A DNA stretch of 22,746 nt from a virus, in IMG/VR virus record IMGVR_UViG_3300022074_000403, positions 1 through 22,746 of that record. One strand, given 5' to 3'. Below, piece after piece: positions 1,435 to 22,478 of this stretch (positions within the stretch are counted from its first letter, which is position 1; every line of letters starts with the position of its first letter). Under the pieces are notes generated by a model, which saw nothing but the letters and a program-made list of their open reading frames with translations, made no database searches and was not told where the DNA came from. The position numbers and the translations under genes were made by a program.

Positions 1435-1762
1435 CAGCCCGCTCGATGATGATAGGCGGCAGATCTTGTGGCTCTGGCTCTGGCATATCGCTTTGACCTA
1501 ACCAGTTCTTACCTAGCCAAACCAGCATGGTCGTATTGCCGTCCATGGCTGCACTGTATTGTCGTCTGCGTAGGCTCATCTTGCCTGTGGATGCTTTTTG
1601 TTTGAAATAGTCCGCAAAACTGAGCTTGTGCTCACGATGACATGCCCTGTTAAGGGTGTCGTAATCGACGCCAAGGATGTTGGCTTGCTCCTCACCTGTG
1701 CAGTGAATAGCGCATAGCTTGTCCACTTGATCCCAGTCTATTTGCTTTTGAGGTCTAGCCAC
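1409..1762 (-). CDS. Terminase small subunit-like DNA-binding protein
   Basis: 117 aa. The gene lies directly upstream of terL and overlaps it by 26 bp, the usual place for the small subunit that recognises the packaging site and loads the motor. Residues about 8-45 look like a helix-turn-helix (TGEEQANILGVDYDTLNRAC), followed by a basic stretch (KMSLRRRQYSAAM) and WLGKNWLGQSD, a pattern seen in many phage small terminases. The C-terminus is acidic and proline-rich. The start is GTG at 1762-1760, overlapping the TAG of the methylase gene by 8 bp; no better ATG is seen nearby. Assignment is from position plus fold-like features. Confidence 0.8.
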   Translation of the reverse strand: MARPQKQIDWDQVDKLCAIHCTGEEQANILGVDYDTLNRACHREHKLSFADYFKQKASTGKMSLRRRQYSAAMDGNTTMLVWLGKNWLGQSDMPEPEPQDLPPIIIERADEANKATG

Positions 1763-3266
1763 TCACAACCTCCAAAGGGCGCTCTAGCTGTGCCGTTTTT
1801 CCTGTGAAGGATTGCCAGCGATTTACGATAACATCGCAGTATTTGGGGCCTAGCTCCATCGTATAGCAAATTCTGCTAGTCTTTTCGGCACCCATTAGCG
1901 TCGTGCCCGATCCAGCAAAAGGCTCCATACATAGACCCCCTGCAGGAAGGCTTGATCGCATGACTCGCTCCATCATCGCTACAGGTTTTGGGGTGGCGTG
2001 ACCGTGGCGATCCTTACCCTTTACACGGTCGAATCTCCAAACATCTGACATTTGATCGTGACCGCTATCAAAATAAGCTCTACTTGCATAAAACTTGGCC
2101 TTTAGGTCGTCGTATTCCCTTTTTAGGTCGTCGTATTCTCTTTCAAAATGTTTCCCCTGAGCTAGATCTTGTATTGCTTGATAGCTCTCTTTCGTCGGGA
2201 AAGACCACTGCGATGTTGTCCAGTAGTGAGTGTGGGTTGAGTTTGTTGCCATTTTGATTTGTTCGTTCTTTAGCCCAGACTTTTCTTTTTCTTCGACTAG
2301 GTAATGTCTCAGGCTATCCCAGCCAGACCAGTAGTTGTCTGCATTGTTGTTGAATCCTTGTTCACCCAGCATAAAGAAAAGGCAGTGTTCACCCATGTTG
2401 GCGAATTGCCGCAAATTGCCCATGCCATCTTTCCCCCAACTAACCCCTTCTTGATGCCATAAAATGTCATTCCTAAAAGTTAAGCCCTCGGAGGACGATA
2501 AACCTCCTGCATACCATAACCGCCACAGATCCTCAGAATTACCCCAGATATACGCGCTCCCATTATCTTCTACGAAGATCCTACAGGTATTCCACCAATC
2601 CATCTGGAACTGATCGAGTTGTTGTTTGTACAAATTATCATTTAACACGCCATCGCCTTCCTTGCCCATCCCATAAGGGGGGTCTGCGTGTATCAGTGCG
2701 GCTTTTTTTCCAGCCATTAGCTTGTCCACATCATCAACACTGGTAGAGTCGCCACACATCAGACGATGGTTCCCCAGTATCCAAACATCCCCTCGCTTGG
2801 TTATCGGCTCCTCTGGCGCTTCTGGCACCTCATCCTCGTCGGTCAGCCCTTCTACGACTTCAGGCTCCAGAATGGTATCCAACTCAGTCGGGTCGAAGCC
2901 GGTCAAGTCTATGTCAACGTCCAACTCTTTCAGCCGATCAATCTCAACCGCTAACAGATCGTAATCCCACCCCCCGTTCTCGGTCAGTTTGTTGTCTGCT
3001 ATCACATACGCCTTGCGCTGCGCTTCCGTCAGCCCTTCAAGGGTTATCGTAGGCACTACTTTAAGATCGAGCTTTTGCGCTGCTGCCAGTCTGCCGTGCC
3101 CTGCGATGATCCCGTTATGCTCATCAATCAAAATCGGATTGTTGAACCCAAACTCTTTGATGCTGGATGCTACTTGCGACACCTGCTGATCGCTATGCGT
3201 GCGCGGGTTGTTGGCGTAGGGAATTAGGTCTGTCGTTGCTATATACGCAACCTCTAGCTCACTCAA
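1755..3266 (-). CDS. ParB/Srx-domain plus beta-class DNA methyltransferase fusion
   Basis: 503 aa. Residues 1-130 form a ParB/sulfiredoxin-type domain (IPYANNPRTHSDQQV, then GIIAGHGRL at 52-60). Residues about 160-490 form an N4-cytosine/N6-adenine methyltransferase: DPPY at 195-198 (catalytic motif IV), HATPKP near 423-428, and FAGSGT at 450-455 (SAM-binding motif I). Motif IV before motif I marks the beta class. An insert at about 318-392 includes two copies of REYDDLK and is probably part of target recognition; similar inserts are common in this family. The enzyme probably methylates phage DNA against host restriction or marks it for packaging; the site is unknown. The start is TTG at 3266-3264 with GAGGAG 8 nt upstream, and no in-frame ATG fits. 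Placement just upstream of terS is frequent in phages. Confidence 0.9.
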   Translation of the reverse strand: MSELEVAYIATTDLIPYANNPRTHSDQQVSQVASSIKEFGFNNPILIDEHNGIIAGHGRLAAAQKLDLKVVPTITLEGLTEAQRKAYVIADNKLTENGGWDYDLLAVEIDRLKELDVDIDLTGFDPTELDTILEPEVVEGLTDEDEVPEAPEEPITKRGDVWILGNHRLMCGDSTSVDDVDKLMAGKKAALIHADPPYGMGKEGDGVLNDNLYKQQLDQFQMDWWNTCRIFVEDNGSAYIWGNSEDLWRLWYAGGLSSSEGLTFRNDILWHQEGVSWGKDGMGNLRQFANMGEHCLFFMLGEQGFNNNADNYWSGWDSLRHYLVEEKEKSGLKNEQIKMATNSTHTHYWTTSQWSFPTKESYQAIQDLAQGKHFEREYDDLKREYDDLKAKFYASRAYFDSGHDQMSDVWRFDRVKGKDRHGHATPKPVAMMERVMRSSLPAGGLCMEPFAGSGTTLMGAEKTSRICYTMELGPKYCDVIVNRWQSFTGKTAQLERPLEVVSG

Positions 3267-8327: not shown

Positions 8328-8747
8328 GTGTTAGACCGAGCCGACGAAGATAAACACAACCCGCAAGCGCCGTGGAACTTGCCGGACGCAGACATATGCT
8401 CATGCGGTGAGCCTAAAAACTTCTGCTATGAATCACAAATTGACTACTGCCGTTATTGCGATGGTGGCGAGGTGCGAGTGATCGCTAGGGACTTCAAGCT
8501 GCACCTGTACGGTTGTGACGAATACCGTAGCCTTGAAGCTGGGCTGATCGCAGAAGTAAACACCGAGATGGATCAGTACGCCACAGAGCTAGAGCGAGAA
8601 GGCTTTACCTTCTTTGAGTACCAGTACCGAGAGGGCAAGGCGAAGATCGAGGTGCCTGCTGACTTCATCAACTCAAACCCGGCACGACAGTATTTTGTGA
8701 AACATGCTGGCTACGAGATTGGCTGCATTACCGAGGAGCGAGCATGA
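8328..8747 (+). CDS. Cys-rich early protein, 139 aa
   Basis: 139 aa, first gene of the rightward early operon. The start is GTG at 8328, with AAGGAG 7 nt upstream. Cys24, Cys26, Cys33, Cys41 and Cys44 (CSC, then C, then CRYC) suggest a zinc-binding knuckle in the N-terminal third. The remainder is a mixed alpha/beta region (EVRVIARDFKLHLYGCDEYR, then FFEYQYREGKAKIEVPADF). The stop overlaps the annealing-protein start as ATGA. A role in DNA metabolism is suggested by context only; I do not recognise the family. Confidence 0.7.
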   Translation: MLDRADEDKHNPQAPWNLPDADICSCGEPKNFCYESQIDYCRYCDGGEVRVIARDFKLHLYGCDEYRSLEAGLIAEVNTEMDQYATELEREGFTFFEYQYREGKAKIEVPADFINSNPARQYFVKHAGYEIGCITEERA

Positions 8748-9439
8748 GTACCACATACCCTGACATCGACGTCACCGATCCCAACGAACCGGATTACGAC
8801 CCAGAACCAACTGAAAAGACCGCAGAGCAGATCAGCTATGACCTCAAGATGCCGTGGCCCACAAGCGAAGTGAAGAGCAGGCAAGGCCCCGGTGGTAAGC
8901 AGTTGAGCTACATTGATGCTCGGCAAGTCATGCACCGGCTCGATAAGGTTGTAGGGCCAGAGAACTGGTCAGACGACTATAAGAGCCTCGACGGCAAGAC
9001 CTGCTGCACTCTCAGTCTCTACATAGGAGGTCGATGGATCGCCAAGTCGGACGGCGCTGGTGACACCTCTATCGAGGGCGAGAAGGGCGGTTTCTCAGAC
9101 TCATTCAAACGCGCAGCGGTAAAGTGGGGCATCGGCAGATACTTGTACCGCGACGGCCCTCTCATCACCCCAGAGCAGTACATCAATGGGTGGAAGCGCC
9201 CGACAGGCGTTGCAAAGACGGTGATTGACGAAGAAGGGATAGAAGTAGACGAAGGGCTAGCAACACAATACATCACTTCAATCATCCAATGTTATGAACA
9301 AGAAGACGATTGCGGCCTCACAGAGCTATGGTCTGAACTCAGTAAAAGTAACGACTTATACTTATTTGTCTGGTCTAAGCTGGACTCAAAGATAAGAAGC
9401 CATGCGAGAGACCACAATTACTTCAGATCGGAGGCATAA
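8744..9439 (+). CDS. Rad52-family single-strand annealing protein
   Basis: 231 aa. After an acidic N-terminus (residues 1-28), residues 30-140 carry the Rad52/Rad22 core: LSYIDARQVMHRLDKVVGPENW (54-75), then strands LDGKTCCTLSLYIGGRW, and DSFKRAAVKWGIGRYLYR (119-136), which is the diagnostic Phe-Lys-Arg-Ala-Ala-x-x-x-Gly-Ile-Gly-Arg-Tyr-Leu-Tyr box. Proteins of this family form rings that anneal complementary single strands during phage recombination and replication. The C-terminal part is variable and may recruit partners. It overlaps the preceding gene as ATGA and the following one as TAATG. No partner exonuclease is seen in the window. Confidence 0.92.
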   Translation: MSTTYPDIDVTDPNEPDYDPEPTEKTAEQISYDLKMPWPTSEVKSRQGPGGKQLSYIDARQVMHRLDKVVGPENWSDDYKSLDGKTCCTLSLYIGGRWIAKSDGAGDTSIEGEKGGFSDSFKRAAVKWGIGRYLYRDGPLITPEQYINGWKRPTGVAKTVIDEEGIEVDEGLATQYITSIIQCYEQEDDCGLTELWSELSKSNDLYLFVWSKLDSKIRSHARDHNYFRSEA

Positions 9440-12456: not shown

Positions 12457-14304
12457 TTACTTCTCCAGTTGTGCCACGCGAGCGCGTAGTGATTGAATTT
12501 CTTTGACAAGCATTGGGACTAGCTTTGAGTAGTCCACGCCCATCATGTCGTTAGTATCTTCTGGCTCAAATACCACTTCAGGCGCTACGGTCTGCAACTC
12601 TTGCGCGACCATGCCGTAGTCTTGGTGTATGCCATCACCTTTCCAATCAAATTGACGCACTTGGATAGCATCTATTCTGCTGCCAGCGTCGGCAGAATCT
12701 GTGATGTTTTCCTTGAGGCGTTCATCAGATGTTTGTGCGTATAGCGTCTGAGAGTTGCTTACATTGCCGATGTAGCCAATCGTAGACCCACTACTGTTCT
12801 GAAAAACTTGGAAAATACCACCAGAAAAAGTTTTGACTTGGATCTTTCCGCCGCTGTTAGCTGTCGTTGTAGCGATACGAGCGGAACCGGAGTACATGAC
12901 GTTATTTAAATGAAGGTCATTGAAGCGCCTATCGCTAGCACCTAAATTAAGAATTCCGTCAGATTCCGTTCCAGAGCTTGTAGCAGGTAGGATTCCAGTA
13001 TTATTTACAAAAAGTACGTTAGCTGTGCCGTTACCTATTCTTAAATGTGTCCCTACATAACTACCAATACTACCGACTGTTGAGGTGCCTTTATAAAACT
13101 GGAGTATATCGCCGTCAGAGTCAGTTCTATTCAGACGCATTACGACAGCACCAGAGTTAGCGTGTTCAGCTAAACCTCCAGCTTTAAGGGCGTGTCCTGT
13201 TACATTGTTTGCGGCAGGATTTACGTTAGTAGTCCCCACCAGCAAGTTGCCGCTTGCGTCGATGCGCACACGCTCTGCTGCACCAGCATACAACGCCATA
13301 TCGTTACCCACAGCCGCAACATTTACATAGTTATCTGCTGTTGTGTTTGCATCCACCAAGCCTATTCTCGCAGAAGTAGTGCTAGTGCTTTCAAATTTAG
13401 CGGCAATTTGAGTGCCTGCTGAATTTACACTTAGCCTTCTTGCTGGGGCGGTATCATTGATACCCAAAGACTCCGCAGACGCATCCCAGAACAACTTAGG
13501 CGTTGTGCCAGTGTCTTCGTAAAAGCTAATGTCGCCTGTCTCAGCAACACGCAAGCGTTGTCTGTCTGTACCGTCTACTGTGTCGGAAGTCTCAACAATA
13601 AAATCAGCACCAAAGTTAGCACCGACACGCTCACTTACTAGGTTGACGTTACACGCACCGCTTACGTTTTGTAAAACAGCCTGCACTCTAGTGCCGTTTG
13701 CGCTTGTGGTATTTGTGAAAGTAGCGGCTGTGAAAGTTCCAGCACTAGCACCATCAACAGTCAAACCATCAGCAGTCACAGTACCCGTAACGTCGATGCC
13801 TGTGGAGGTGGTTTCTAAAACTTTGCCGTTGCTGTAAAACAACGAAACATTAGGGTTACTGCTATTATTTGATGCAACCAAGTACCTTAAACCAGAAGTA
13901 TTATCCAGCAAACGAATATCAGTGCCTGTAATTTCTAAGTTTCCTGCGCCTGCATCAGTAATATAGCTTTTAGACCCATCATGATAAATCTGTAGGTCAG
14001 AGCCAGCACCGAAAATAGCCTTATCATTGTCGCCAAATGATATGTCGCCAGTGGTAGTGATACTGCCTGTTGTTAGTGCGGTTACCGTCAAAGCACTGAC
14101 CGTGTTGCCTGTTAGCGCAGCGTTTAAGCTGGTGTCTGATACGTTGTTGAGATCGGCCCTTGCAAGCTCAAACCCGCCCGCTGTACTGCCGTCATTAACG
14201 TGGATAGAGTCGTTGGTGGTGTTAACTACTACCTCACCCTCGGCACCTGTAAAAGCGGCTACCTGTGAACTGGTGCCACGCCTGATCTGTAGTTGTGTCG
14301 CCAT
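12457..14304 (-). CDS. Tail fibre with S74 self-cleaving C-terminal chaperone
   Basis: 615 aa. Residues 1-50, QIRRGTSSQVAAFTGAEGEV and then VNDGSTAGGFELARAD, match the particle-binding N-terminal domain of tropism-determinant fibres. The middle has beta-rich repeats such as GSDLQIYHDGSKSYITDAGA, common in marine phage fibres. The C-terminal 91 residues are an intramolecular chaperone (Peptidase_S74): SDERLKENI at 526-534, with probable catalytic Ser526 and Lys531, then YGMVAQELQTVAPEVV and a terminal helix (VKEIQSLRARVAQLEK). The chaperone trimerises the fibre and cuts itself off. This is probably the receptor-binding fibre that sets host range. It starts one base after the stop of the 125-aa gene. 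Confidence 0.9.
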   Translation of the reverse strand: MATQLQIRRGTSSQVAAFTGAEGEVVVNTTNDSIHVNDGSTAGGFELARADLNNVSDTSLNAALTGNTVSALTVTALTTGSITTTGDISFGDNDKAIFGAGSDLQIYHDGSKSYITDAGAGNLEITGTDIRLLDNTSGLRYLVASNNSSNPNVSLFYSNGKVLETTSTGIDVTGTVTADGLTVDGASAGTFTAATFTNTTSANGTRVQAVLQNVSGACNVNLVSERVGANFGADFIVETSDTVDGTDRQRLRVAETGDISFYEDTGTTPKLFWDASAESLGINDTAPARRLSVNSAGTQIAAKFESTSTTSARIGLVDANTTADNYVNVAAVGNDMALYAGAAERVRIDASGNLLVGTTNVNPAANNVTGHALKAGGLAEHANSGAVVMRLNRTDSDGDILQFYKGTSTVGSIGSYVGTHLRIGNGTANVLFVNNTGILPATSSGTESDGILNLGASDRRFNDLHLNNVMYSGSARIATTTANSGGKIQVKTFSGGIFQVFQNSSGSTIGYIGNVSNSQTLYAQTSDERLKENITDSADAGSRIDAIQVRQFDWKGDGIHQDYGMVAQELQTVAPEVVFEPEDTNDMMGVDYSKLVPMLVKEIQSLRARVAQLEK

Positions 14305-14682
14305 CTAAGTCTCCAATGTGGGCCAATCTTCATCTGCAAGATCAGGCCAGTTCTGGTGTAGTGTAATGTCGCGCAAAGCCTGCCGATAGGTTCTGTACTG
14401 TGTTTTTTGATCGTCTGTAAGTGGCGCATCAAGCACTTGAGTCCAATCGCTCTCCCTGAGCAATGCATCTCTCTCTAACCGCGCATTTGTTTCTTTCAAT
14501 TCGTCCGTTTCGACGTGCTCTTTATCTACGACGCTTCCATCGACGACCATTTGCGTAGCGTCATCTGCTACACCTTCTAGGATAAACTCACCATCTTGAG
14601 CTTGGATTACAAAATCTGCTTCTGCACACACGCCAGAGCGTAAAATAGTCCCACCTTCTTCATACACAACGAAGTTTTTCAC
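14305..14682 (-). CDS. Tail-fibre assembly chaperone-like protein
   Basis: 125 aa. The C-terminal part LLRESDWTQVLDAPLTDDQKTQYRTYRQALRDITLHQNWPDLADEDWPT matches the Phage_tail_APC pattern (Ser-Asp-Trp-Thr-Gln, Leu-Thr-Asp, Tyr-Arg-Gln-Ala-Leu-Arg-Asp, Trp-Pro). The N-terminal 60 residues are strands with an acidic middle. Proteins of this group lie next to fibre genes and are thought to help fibre assembly. The start is GTG at 14682-14680, overlapping the J-like stop as GTGA. Confidence 0.78.
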   Translation of the reverse strand: MKNFVVYEEGGTILRSGVCAEADFVIQAQDGEFILEGVADDATQMVVDGSVVDKEHVETDELKETNARLERDALLRESDWTQVLDAPLTDDQKTQYRTYRQALRDITLHQNWPDLADEDWPTLET

Positions 14683-20086: not shown

Positions 20087-20682
20087 GCGAGAACATCCTC
20101 GACGGCTTCGATCGTAAAGCTCGAACTGATGTCTCTCTGCGTATCCCAAGACGCTGGCCCTGCCAACATGAATACACCAGATACCGGGGTCAGATAGTCA
20201 ACGACTGTATTGTTCGCTGCTGTCTTTCTAATTGGTGGGGCAATGGACAAAGTAACATTGCCAGAGGCATCCGAGTTAGCGTCAGCAATGACCATGTGAA
20301 GCTCGTTGTTGAACGAGATGTAGTCTCCCGCCCTCAAGTAATTATTGACCGATGCCGTCGCACCATCACACACCAAGCTGGTGCCAGATTGCGTACCGCC
20401 GTTGATAAGTAACGTACCGCCACCTGCGCCCCTTCGAGTATAGGAGTGATCGTGCAGTGTAAATCTATGCTGCTGTCCGTTTAGTTTGACTACGAACGCC
20501 TGCATCTCTCGCCTGTCGTCACCGGTAAGATTGGTGAACTGCAAGCTCGCTCGCCACAGTGAGCCTTTGCGCGAGGAAGTTTGTATCGCATTAGTCAGCG
20601 GTGACTGAAATGTGCGGGTGTTAGCAACAAGCTCAAAGGTATTCGTCGTGGGCGTGATGCTGGGGAATGCAAATGTGGTCAC
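20083..20682 (-). CDS. Tail tip protein, 199 aa
   Basis: 199 aa. SLWRASLQFTNLTGDDRREMQAFVVKLNGQQHRFTLHDHSYTRRGAGGG resembles the core of phage distal-tail proteins: an aromatic-basic strand, then a helix with Phe-Val-x-Lys-Leu-Asn-Gly, then Phe-x-Leu-x-Asp. It is mostly beta and ends in an acidic SSFTIEAVEDVLA. It lies between the tape measure and the DUF2163-like gene, where the lambda M-equivalent is found. The start is GTG at 20682-20680, overlapping the tape measure stop as GTGA. The family name is not certain. Confidence 0.75.
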   Translation of the reverse strand: MTTFAFPSITPTTNTFELVANTRTFQSPLTNAIQTSSRKGSLWRASLQFTNLTGDDRREMQAFVVKLNGQQHRFTLHDHSYTRRGAGGGTLLINGGTQSGTSLVCDGATASVNNYLRAGDYISFNNELHMVIADANSDASGNVTLSIAPPIRKTAANNTVVDYLTPVSGVFMLAGPASWDTQRDISSSFTIEAVEDVLA

Positions 20683-21995
20683 GCGAACCGCCTCCTACGC
20701 ATCAGATCTTGGATTGTCATTATAGTCTGCTGGCTGGTCTGAGCCATAGCGGTTTTGATCTTCTGGTCTACATCAGCGCCAGAGCCGCGAGCATCGACGT
20801 TGTTAATAACTGTGATGCCAGCACCCTGACCTTTTGTATGGTCTATCACTGATTCATTCGGGTGAAGTGTAGCAAGGAAGCCGCCGCGCCCATCTATGCC
20901 TCCCGATCTCGCGCCCATGCCAGTGAAGCCGCCGCCCTCGAAGCTAGCGGACTTGATTTGAGCGACTTGCGCCAAGCCGAACCCGACTGTCGCTATCGCT
21001 GCTAACTGTCCAAACGGTGGAGGGAACGCAGCCAGTGCCTTAGTCGCAGCATCGTAGGTCTGCATAGTGGCCTGAGCTATCCGAAAGGCTTTGTTTACGG
21101 CGAACATCTCTTTGCTCATTCTTGATGAGGCAGTGAGTTGCTCATCTAAGTTGCTGAGAGTTTCTTCCTTGTTTTTCTTCTTCTCTCTACGCTCTTCAAT
21201 GCTTTTGTTGATGTTGGATTGATTCAAAGCAAGCAGGACGGCGCTACCATCTTTTTCTAGCTGCTCCATCTCTTTACGGAGATTGGTTTGCTCTCTCAGA
21301 GCCGCAGTCGCTGCTCTCGTTCTTTCTGCGGTGGTATCCTGTGACTCAGCATAAGCGGCGTTAACCGCTGCTATTCTTTCTAAGACTATGCTGGCCTCTT
21401 CGTTGACAGAGTTTTGTTCTCTTTGCGCTGCTGCGACTGCTTCAATCGCTGCTTTTAGAACTGGTTGTCTAGTGCGCCCCTGTCGTTTTCTTTCTAGGTC
21501 TTCCTCTGCTTTATCTACTTCAAGTTGTGCTTGTGCTTGTGCCGCTATCGCTTCAGCTTGCAACTCTGCATTGCGACGAATAGCCCTCGCTCGCTCTGTT
21601 GCAGTCATGGAAGCTAGCGATGTTTGTACATCGTCTGCTGCTTCCTTCATTCTCTCTAACGCATTCGTGCCGCTAAAGAGAGACGAAATTAGCGGGCCAG
21701 CGACTGCTGCTGCAACGGCTATGAATGCACCGATCACTGCACCACCGGGGCCAAATATCGAAGCTATTTGTGAACCCTGTTGACCGAATACTGTGGCTGC
21801 TGCTGTGCCACTTTGTAGCTGAACCGCTACGTCTTGAATCTGAAAGCCTAGCTGTTGGGAAGCGCCTCGGAAGTTTTTGAATCGCCCTGTGACGACTTGA
21901 GCATTCTTCGCGGTGCGATTAAGGTTTTTGTTAACCGAATCAAGGCCGCGCTTGGTTCTATCCTCTGCTGTGATTACTACTTTAGCGTCAGCCAT
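20679..21995 (-). CDS. Tape measure protein, short (438 aa)
   Basis: 438 aa. A basic, helical N-terminus leads to a hydrophobic stretch at about 82-107 (GPGGAVIGAFIAVAAAVAGPLISSLF), long Glu/Ala/Gln-rich coiled-coil helices (about 120-300), then FPPPFGQLAAIATVGFGLAQVAQIKS and EGGGFTGMGARSGG ... LATLHPNESVIDHTKG, the usual end of tape measure proteins. It sets tail length and is ejected with DNA; by the roughly 0.15 nm per residue rule, the tail would be about 65 nm, short for a siphovirus. ATG at 21995-21993 overlaps the frameshift product stop by 8 bp. Its position after the tail chaperones is canonical. Confidence 0.92.
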   Translation of the reverse strand: MADAKVVITAEDRTKRGLDSVNKNLNRTAKNAQVVTGRFKNFRGASQQLGFQIQDVAVQLQSGTAAATVFGQQGSQIASIFGPGGAVIGAFIAVAAAVAGPLISSLFSGTNALERMKEAADDVQTSLASMTATERARAIRRNAELQAEAIAAQAQAQLEVDKAEEDLERKRQGRTRQPVLKAAIEAVAAAQREQNSVNEEASIVLERIAAVNAAYAESQDTTAERTRAATAALREQTNLRKEMEQLEKDGSAVLLALNQSNINKSIEERREKKKNKEETLSNLDEQLTASSRMSKEMFAVNKAFRIAQATMQTYDAATKALAAFPPPFGQLAAIATVGFGLAQVAQIKSASFEGGGFTGMGARSGGIDGRGGFLATLHPNESVIDHTKGQGAGITVINNVDARGSGADVDQKIKTAMAQTSQQTIMTIQDLMRRRRFA

Positions 21996-22478
21996 TATCG
22001 CGCCCCAAAATGTTTAGGTAGGCTATCCACTCATTGAATTCACTGAGCGGCATCTGCTCTGCCTCACCTATCGTAATATGTAAGCGATCAGCTAGGGCAA
22101 TGAGATTTAACCGAAACTGATCGCTAGTTAGTTTTTTTCCTGATCCTCAACACTGGTGATGGTGCTAAACATCTGAGCAGCGATTTCGCTAACTATCGCG
22201 CTTTCCTCACCCATTAAATCATGCCGATCCTCTGCCGTGCCAAAGATGCGCTCATTTGACTCGTCGGTAGCCTTCATGCAGATGAGATCAACCATCGCCG
22301 GCAGCGTCATGTCACTCAAAAAGCCGGGGTGCTTCTTTTGCATCTGGCCCATGTCATACGCCGTAATCGGATAGCAGTAAAAGACGAAAGGCTCGCCGCC
22401 TTCGTCTGCCCACTCTGCCACCTCAATTCGCTTAGGCTCAACCTTGCGCCGGTTGCGTAGCTCCCGAACCAGCCCCAT
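21988..22478 (-). CDS. Tail assembly chaperone, -1 frameshift fusion (G-T type)
   Basis: A 163-aa product predicted when ribosomes slip back one base on A_AAA_AAC (22137-22131) near the end of the 116-aa chaperone. The new frame continues for 47 codons, LTSDQFRLNLIALADRLHIT and so on, to EFNEWIAYLNILGRDNG and a TGA at 21990-21988 that overlaps the tape measure start. The added segment has the Glu-x-x-x-Trp-x-Ala-Tyr feature of lambda T-like (DUF4035-type) domains. By analogy with lambda gpG/gpGT, the fusion bridges tape measure and tail tube subunits. A stop-free frame, slippery site and stem together make it convincing. Confidence 0.88.
22083..22137 (-). promoter_or_regulatory. -1 programmed frameshift signal
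   Basis: Slippery heptamer A AAA AAC at 22137-22131 in the reading frame of the 116-aa gene, followed at once by the in-frame TAA. After a 5-nt spacer, AGCGATCAG (22125-22117 on the minus strand) pairs perfectly with CTGATCGCT (22091-22083) across a 25-nt loop: a 9-bp stem at a typical distance for stimulating slippage. Confidence 0.88.
22128..22478 (-). CDS. Tail assembly chaperone (G type)
   Basis: 116 aa. MGLVRELRNRRKVEPKRIEV is basic. EPFVFYCYPITAYDMGQMQKKHPGFL and DLICMKATDESNERIFGTAEDRHDLM are typical of gpG-like chaperones: a membrane-free alpha/beta fold and a middle Tyr-Asp-x-Gly-x-x-x-Lys stretch. It ends SVEDQEKN at the slippery run. It coats the tape measure while the tail is built and is absent from the virion. 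ATG at 22478-22476 overlaps the tail protein stop as TGATG. Its slot between tail tube and tape measure supports the role. Confidence 0.87.
   Translation of the reverse strand: MGLVRELRNRRKVEPKRIEVAEWADEGGEPFVFYCYPITAYDMGQMQKKHPGFLSDMTLPAMVDLICMKATDESNERIFGTAEDRHDLMGEESAIVSEIAAQMFSTITSVEDQEKN

Follow-up and report, generated by a model that had tools for sequence, protein, structure and literature searches.

In phage lambda, the G/GT tail assembly chaperone gene (slippery heptamer G_GGA_AAG) lies between the tail tube and tape measure genes, has its heptamer near the 3' end, and is continued by a -1 extension that ends over the start of the tape measure gene, with a low level of fusion protein being made (PMC5009743). 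Homologues of the HK97 tail assembly chaperone shifted into the -1 frame at 6-7% when tested in E. coli reporters (PMC3711429), and structures 5-8 nt downstream of the slip site, together with upstream Shine-Dalgarno (SD)-like sequences, are known stimulators of bacterial -1 frameshifting (PMC4066793). Here, we analyzed a 22,746-nt stretch of viral DNA (IMG/VR record IMGVR_UViG_3300022074_000403, positions 1 to 22,746; hereafter, the window), which contains a gene with the same placement and layout as lambda G, and we infer a low level of fusion protein here as well. The sequence makes us confident that this gene, which we call G, is a tail assembly chaperone gene of the lambda G/GT type that is extended into T by a programmed -1 ribosomal frameshift.

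An earlier inspection of the letters alone (the original prediction) had described an A_AAA_AAC heptamer in the right frame, an immediate stop, and a 47-codon -1 frame ending over the tape measure start, all of which were borne out (Table 1). Gene G (minus strand, 22478-22128, stop codon included) encodes 116 amino acids (MGLVRELR...VEDQEKN) and ends in GAG GAT CAG GAA AAA AAC TAA, so that the heptamer is in the X_XXY_YYZ phase and is directly followed by TAA. Reading shifted one base back continues as KK/LTSDQFRLNLIALADRLHITIGEAEQMPLSEFNEWIAYLNILGRDNG. The -1 frame of T starts with the codon CTA (22131-22129), its TGA (21990-21988) lies over the tape measure ATG at 21995, and the predicted GT fusion has 163 amino acids with the junction ...DQEK/KLTSDQFR. 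As a control for chance, we scanned the 5652 in-phase positions of the window's genes for X_XXY_YYZ heptamers. Of the 20 found, the one in G alone abuts its gene's end; its -1 frame is also the longest, extending 137 nt beyond that end compared with 14 nt for the runner-up. The doubt left after this control was removed by the conservation of the heptamer and of the -1 frame in relatives.

A tblastn search of phage records identified two-frame relatives in ten isolates of the Roseobacter CRP and Pelagibacter HTVC types. After scans of viral contigs and genomes, the set comprised 412 loci with 243 distinct 97-nt contexts, forming 61 clusters at 85% identity and four clades: the window's clade, CRP (Roseobacter), HTVC112P, and HTVC026P (SAR11). 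The original prediction had named as evidence against it any relatives that lacked the heptamer or whose -1 frame contained stops; we found the heptamer in phase in all 412 loci and the -1 frame open, over 46-60 codons, in all 408 loci with a complete end. In one locus (L329), G is interrupted by an earlier stop or a sequence error, and the downstream heptamer is intact. Across 239 distinct contexts, read over 126 nt, the -1 frame was without a stop in every case, frame 0 was closed in 239 and the +1 frame in 238, and variation peaked at the third positions of the -1 frame. Together, these patterns indicate that T evolves as coding sequence. Some search patterns of the first scans crossed the junction; a later scan used a query restricted to G and recovered the slip site in 79 of 80 loci, nine of these with a displaced stop, and one locus was cut off by the contig end. 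The genome scan yielded a single full relative, on a contig of a Pseudomonadales metagenome-assembled genome that is probably of phage origin, and two further matches to the T part alone.

The zero-frame stop adjoins the heptamer in 409 of the 412 loci, as TAA, TGA, or TAG. When counted by cluster, adjacent stops were observed in 58 of 60, compared with about 17.8 expected from synonymous choice given the -1 residues and clade codon usage. The stop lies 3 or 12 nt later in two loci, and the SAR11 clade was looser in the G-only scan (adjacent in 70 of 79). As loci with a displaced stop exist, adjacency is preferred rather than essential. Elsewhere, the distance from heptamer to stop is 15 nt in lambda, 3 nt in Sinorhizobium phi3LM21 and Moraxella Mcat21, and 26 nt on average in the SEA-PHAGES set (PMC10885494). 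The phi3LM21_p41 "hypothetical protein" (L415:937-1047) overlaps the -1 extension of a tail chaperone gene with A_AAA_AAC and a stop one codon later.

Downstream of the slip site, the original prediction had placed a perfect 9-bp stem after a 5-nt spacer. The repeat (AGCGATCAG, 22125-22117, and CTGATCGCT, 22091-22083) and the spacer were both exact, the latter lying within the 5-8 nt that separate heptamer and structure in dnaX/IS911-type signals, but the stem had been understated: in the RNAfold prediction, it has 11 bp and holds an inner helix (-19.8 kcal/mol, z of -5.9 for a 52-nt stretch). Of the 29 clustered relatives in the window's clade, 28 gave better folds than their synonymous shuffles (p<=0.01), with a mean z of -3.9. 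Over the 17-pair helix in 75 aligned sequences, 59 cells had both sides changed; shuffles gave 24.3 +- 3.0, and slid controls never exceeded 22. The column pair 14-54 was G-C in 39 sequences and C-G in 35, without exceptions, the 5' change altering an amino acid and the 3' change being silent in Arg. The stem was mostly rewritten, to CCTCTCAG / CTGAGAGG, in L276 and L278.

In each of the three stem-bearing clades, the 5' arm begins about 5-6 nt past the heptamer. Its 3' partner lies at a different place in each, with ends at about 27, 47, and 108 nt. The HTVC112P clade has the nearer partner, an AGCGACC / GGTCGCT stem ending about 27 nt after the heptamer, with a z of -3.7 for the stretch and 7 of 8 clusters at p<=0.01. 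For the CRP clade, a near hairpin (within about 48 nt) was unsupported (z of -0.5), and a wider span gave a 12-bp long-range stem instead, formed by GCGACCCATTCA and TGAATGGGTCGC; its end lies about 108 nt past the heptamer, and it encloses further structure. In this stem, 95% of cells were paired compared with 30-44% when slid; covariation was modest (7 doubly changed cells, compared with 2.1), and conserved residues account for part of the pairing, individual synonymous-shuffle p values being mostly 0.004-0.1. No stem was found in the HTVC026P clade out to about 134 nt after the heptamer.

The original prediction described a cassette of which every stated element is present, but it overlooked an SD-like GAGG upstream of the heptamer and did not recognize the conservation of the abutting stop. 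The Glu codon three before the slip is GAG in 92/95, 47/48, and 43/47 loci of the three stem-bearing clades, versus about 40% elsewhere in the same genes, and it is usually followed by G, giving GAGG. Tested on clusters, the GAG excess had p values of 1e-10 and 5e-6 in two clades and was not significant in the third (5/8). The HTVC026P clade lacks GAGG.

Table 1. Features of the G/T locus and flanking genes in the window
Feature	Coordinates	Strand	Basis or remark
Gene G, tail assembly chaperone	22128..22478	minus	Open reading frame; phrog_344; AF2 model vs 2ob9
Shine-Dalgarno-like GAGG	22148-22145	minus	Candidate stimulator; ends 7 nt before heptamer; near-fixed GAG codon
Slippery heptamer A_AAA_AAC	22137-22131	minus	X_XXY_YYZ phase with G; in phase in 412/412 related loci
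Zero-frame TAA, abutting heptamer	22130-22128	minus	Adjacent in 409/412 loci
T extension, -1 frame: 47 sense codons (LTSDQFR...GRDNG) + TGA	22131..21988	minus	Open in all complete relatives; phrog_337
Hairpin 5' arm AGCGATCAGTT	22125-22115	minus	RNAfold, shuffles, compensatory changes; candidate stimulator
Hairpin 3' arm AGCTGATCGCT	22093-22083	minus	RNAfold, shuffles, compensatory changes; candidate stimulator
Tail tube gene, partial	22744-22478		phrog_10528 major tail protein
Tape measure protein	21995..20679	minus	phrog_1538 tail length tape measure, E 5.5e-22; start codon overlaps T end

A -1 product could also arise if RNA polymerase slipped on the run of A residues (A7 in this gene), with extra-A transcripts translated straight into T. 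The A7 does precede C in the window, and poly-A slippage giving two protein lengths is known, for example on the A11 of tssM1 (PMC4256274). However, G_GGA_AAC, with no long run, replaces the run in about one-third of the window's clade (34 of 95 distinct contexts), a further argument being the 15 contexts with A6 only, and slippage would need neither the phase, nor GAGG, nor a hairpin at a fixed distance. We therefore rejected transcriptional slippage as the main cause for the window and consider it very improbable. The HTVC026P-type SAR11 phages keep an unbroken A9, without hairpin or GAGG, in 49 of 49 contexts of the first set; in the second set, the A9 stands directly before the stop in 70 of 79, and it is visible in the displaced-stop cases too. 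Polymerase slippage is possible in that clade, where it is a fair candidate but only a lead, because AAA is the usual Lys codon there (84% of Lys codons), which makes the A9 weak evidence. The HTVC026P-type loci with A9 and without GAGG or stem are L006, L007, L331-L410, and L417-L496. Still less probable is an unfused T, whether a small gene with its own start or a remnant in decay. T-like pieces do carry separate coding-sequence annotations in other phages (phi3LM21_p41, Mcat21), but here the first possible start codon (ATG, GTG, or TTG) in the T frame is the ATG at MPLSEF, and all complete relatives keep the frame, which evolves as coding, open from the heptamer onward.

A rival of another kind concerns the stimulators and not the frameshift itself. 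It holds that neither the abutting stop nor the inverted repeat is regulatory: the stop would be just the simplest end for G at the point of fusion, and the repeat would follow from conserved T residues. The stops 3 or 12 nt later in two loci and the 70/79 adjacency of the SAR11 clade are compatible with it, as is the CRP stem, which comes partly from conserved residues and is reached by synonymous shuffles in 0.4-10% for most members. We nevertheless regard it as unlikely, since synonymous choice would yield adjacent stops in only about 18 of 60 clusters, compared with the 58 seen, and the hairpins of the window's clade (z of -3.9) and of HTVC112P (short stem, z of -3.7) stand out from synonymous shuffles.

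The elements, their conservation, the compensatory changes in the hairpin, and the coding conservation of T can be read directly from the DNA, and from them we infer the production of GT, the ribosomal nature of the slip, the role of each stimulator, the product ratio, and the function in assembly. In a programmed -1 frameshift, most ribosomes would decode AAA AAC and terminate at the TAA that follows, yielding the 116-amino-acid G. In a minority, tRNA-Lys on AAA and tRNA-Asn on AAC would slip back by one base to pair with AAA AAA, and these ribosomes would go on with CTA ACT AGC... to produce the 163-amino-acid GT. The downstream hairpin, after its 5-nt spacer, and the upstream GAGG may keep the ribosome on the slippery site. 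With the stop abutting, the release factor would compete directly with any post-translocation slip; if HIV-1 reporters are a guide, this probably limits the GT fraction to a low level. By analogy with lambda, G may coat the tape measure protein and the T tail of GT may recruit the major tail protein.

Several points weigh against this interpretation. A stop abutting the HIV-1 slip site lowers, rather than raises, -1 frameshifting in reporters, by about 70% and in a release-factor-sensitive manner (PMC4373837). In the present gene, the abutting stop likely restrains GT production or just gives G a tidy terminus. A_AAA_AAC and G_GGA_AAC are both weak sites in E. coli (PMC4066793). The window's hairpin is not universal, as the partner arm differs by clade and one clade has none. 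GAGG sits 7 nt from the heptamer, closer than the 9-14 nt range described for stimulation of -1 shifts (PMC5009743), so its role is a proposal. A more specific model can be offered only tentatively: the G:GT ratio would be set by the release factor at a selected abutting stop in competition with a post-translocation slip; the pausing structure would keep its 5' arm about 5-6 nt from the heptamer, its 3' partner having been re-invented at three places (ends at about 27, 47, and 108 nt); and one SAR11-phage clade may have swapped ribosomal stimulation for polymerase slippage on A9.

We then considered the identity of the proteins. The window's G matched PHROG 344 ("tail assembly chaperone") weakly when taken alone (E of 0.0027), and 43 of 48 relatives matched it, with a best E of 6.8e-30. 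An AF2 model of G (pLDDT of 82.7) had the HK97 tail assembly chaperone, 2ob9, as its top solved match (probability 1.00, TM 0.53/0.58). The window's T part matched PHROG 337 ("tail protein") with an E of 4.7e-5, and 33 of 44 relatives matched this family as well. The Pfam family Phage_tail_T was weakly detected in the T parts of four relatives (best E of 0.0077) and not in the window's T; a Pfam search of the window's G and T gave no match, a sequence-profile search of solved structures gave no meaningful match, and an Rfam search of the window gave none. The tail chaperone assignment therefore rests on the PHROGs, the relatives, and the fold, and not on Pfam matches of the window's proteins. 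With G located between the tail tube and tape measure genes, the phrog_344 match, the HK97 chaperone fold, and the conserved signal support the original prediction of a -1 frameshift in a tail chaperone gene.

Elsewhere in the window, a Phage_tail_APC domain protein (14305-14682, minus strand) is encoded beside tail fiber genes; that Pfam name also reads "tail assembly chaperone," but the family differs from that of G. Its neighbor (12457-14304, minus strand) combines an Mtd (major tropism determinant) N-terminal domain with a C-terminal Peptidase_S74 intramolecular chaperone. A single open reading frame (1755-3266, minus strand) carries a ParB N-terminal domain and an N6/N4 DNA methylase, and a Rad52/22-family recombinase gene (8744-9439, plus strand) lies on the strand opposite to the structural genes.

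In the records examined for CRP-822-type and HTVC111P/112P/026P/202P isolates, G was annotated and the T extension was annotated in none, and the paper on the CRP-822 family never mentions frameshifting (PMC12629253). Consequently, as far as the literature examined shows, the GT product is newly recognized in these marine phages. HTVC112P_gp41 (L005:952-1098, minus strand) and HTVC111P_gp45 (L008:952-1104, minus strand) are antisense gene calls over the missed T frame and are probably spurious. Our results point to a frameshift gene left unannotated throughout a widespread group of ocean phages, among them isolates that infect Roseobacter and SAR11; the predicted tail assembly protein GT is therefore missing from the annotations of those phages. 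They also provide a natural series, in which one gene with one slip site occurs with several stimulator layouts, with or without GAGG, so that the roles of the next codon, the upstream SD, and the hairpin in bacterial -1 frameshifting can be compared.

The chaperones of the Roseobacter CRP-822-type and Pelagibacter HTVC111P/112P/026P/202P phages are direct homologues that share the kind of heptamer, the abutting stop, and the -1 frame, but their stem partner is elsewhere or missing. The HK97 tail assembly chaperone resembles G in its predicted fold, as the best Protein Data Bank match, but is only about 16% identical. The E. coli dnaX and IS911/IS3-type -1 signals likewise combine an upstream SD-like element, a heptamer, and a hairpin 5-8 nt downstream (PMC4066793, PMC5009743), although they belong to different genes; in the window's gene, a stop comes immediately after the heptamer, and GAGG is placed 7 nt before it. 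A stop directly 3' of the heptamer is found at the -1 sites of Rous sarcoma virus and barley yellow dwarf virus (PMC4373837), which are, however, eukaryotic viruses. Lambda itself differs in having its stop 15 nt after the heptamer and a -1 part of 146 codons, compared with 0 nt and 47 codons here. The adjacency of the stop and the moving stem partner are uncommon details rather than a new kind of system. The T part is possibly homologous to lambda T, and nearly every other sequence feature tested supports the gene well as a new member of the lambda G/GT class.
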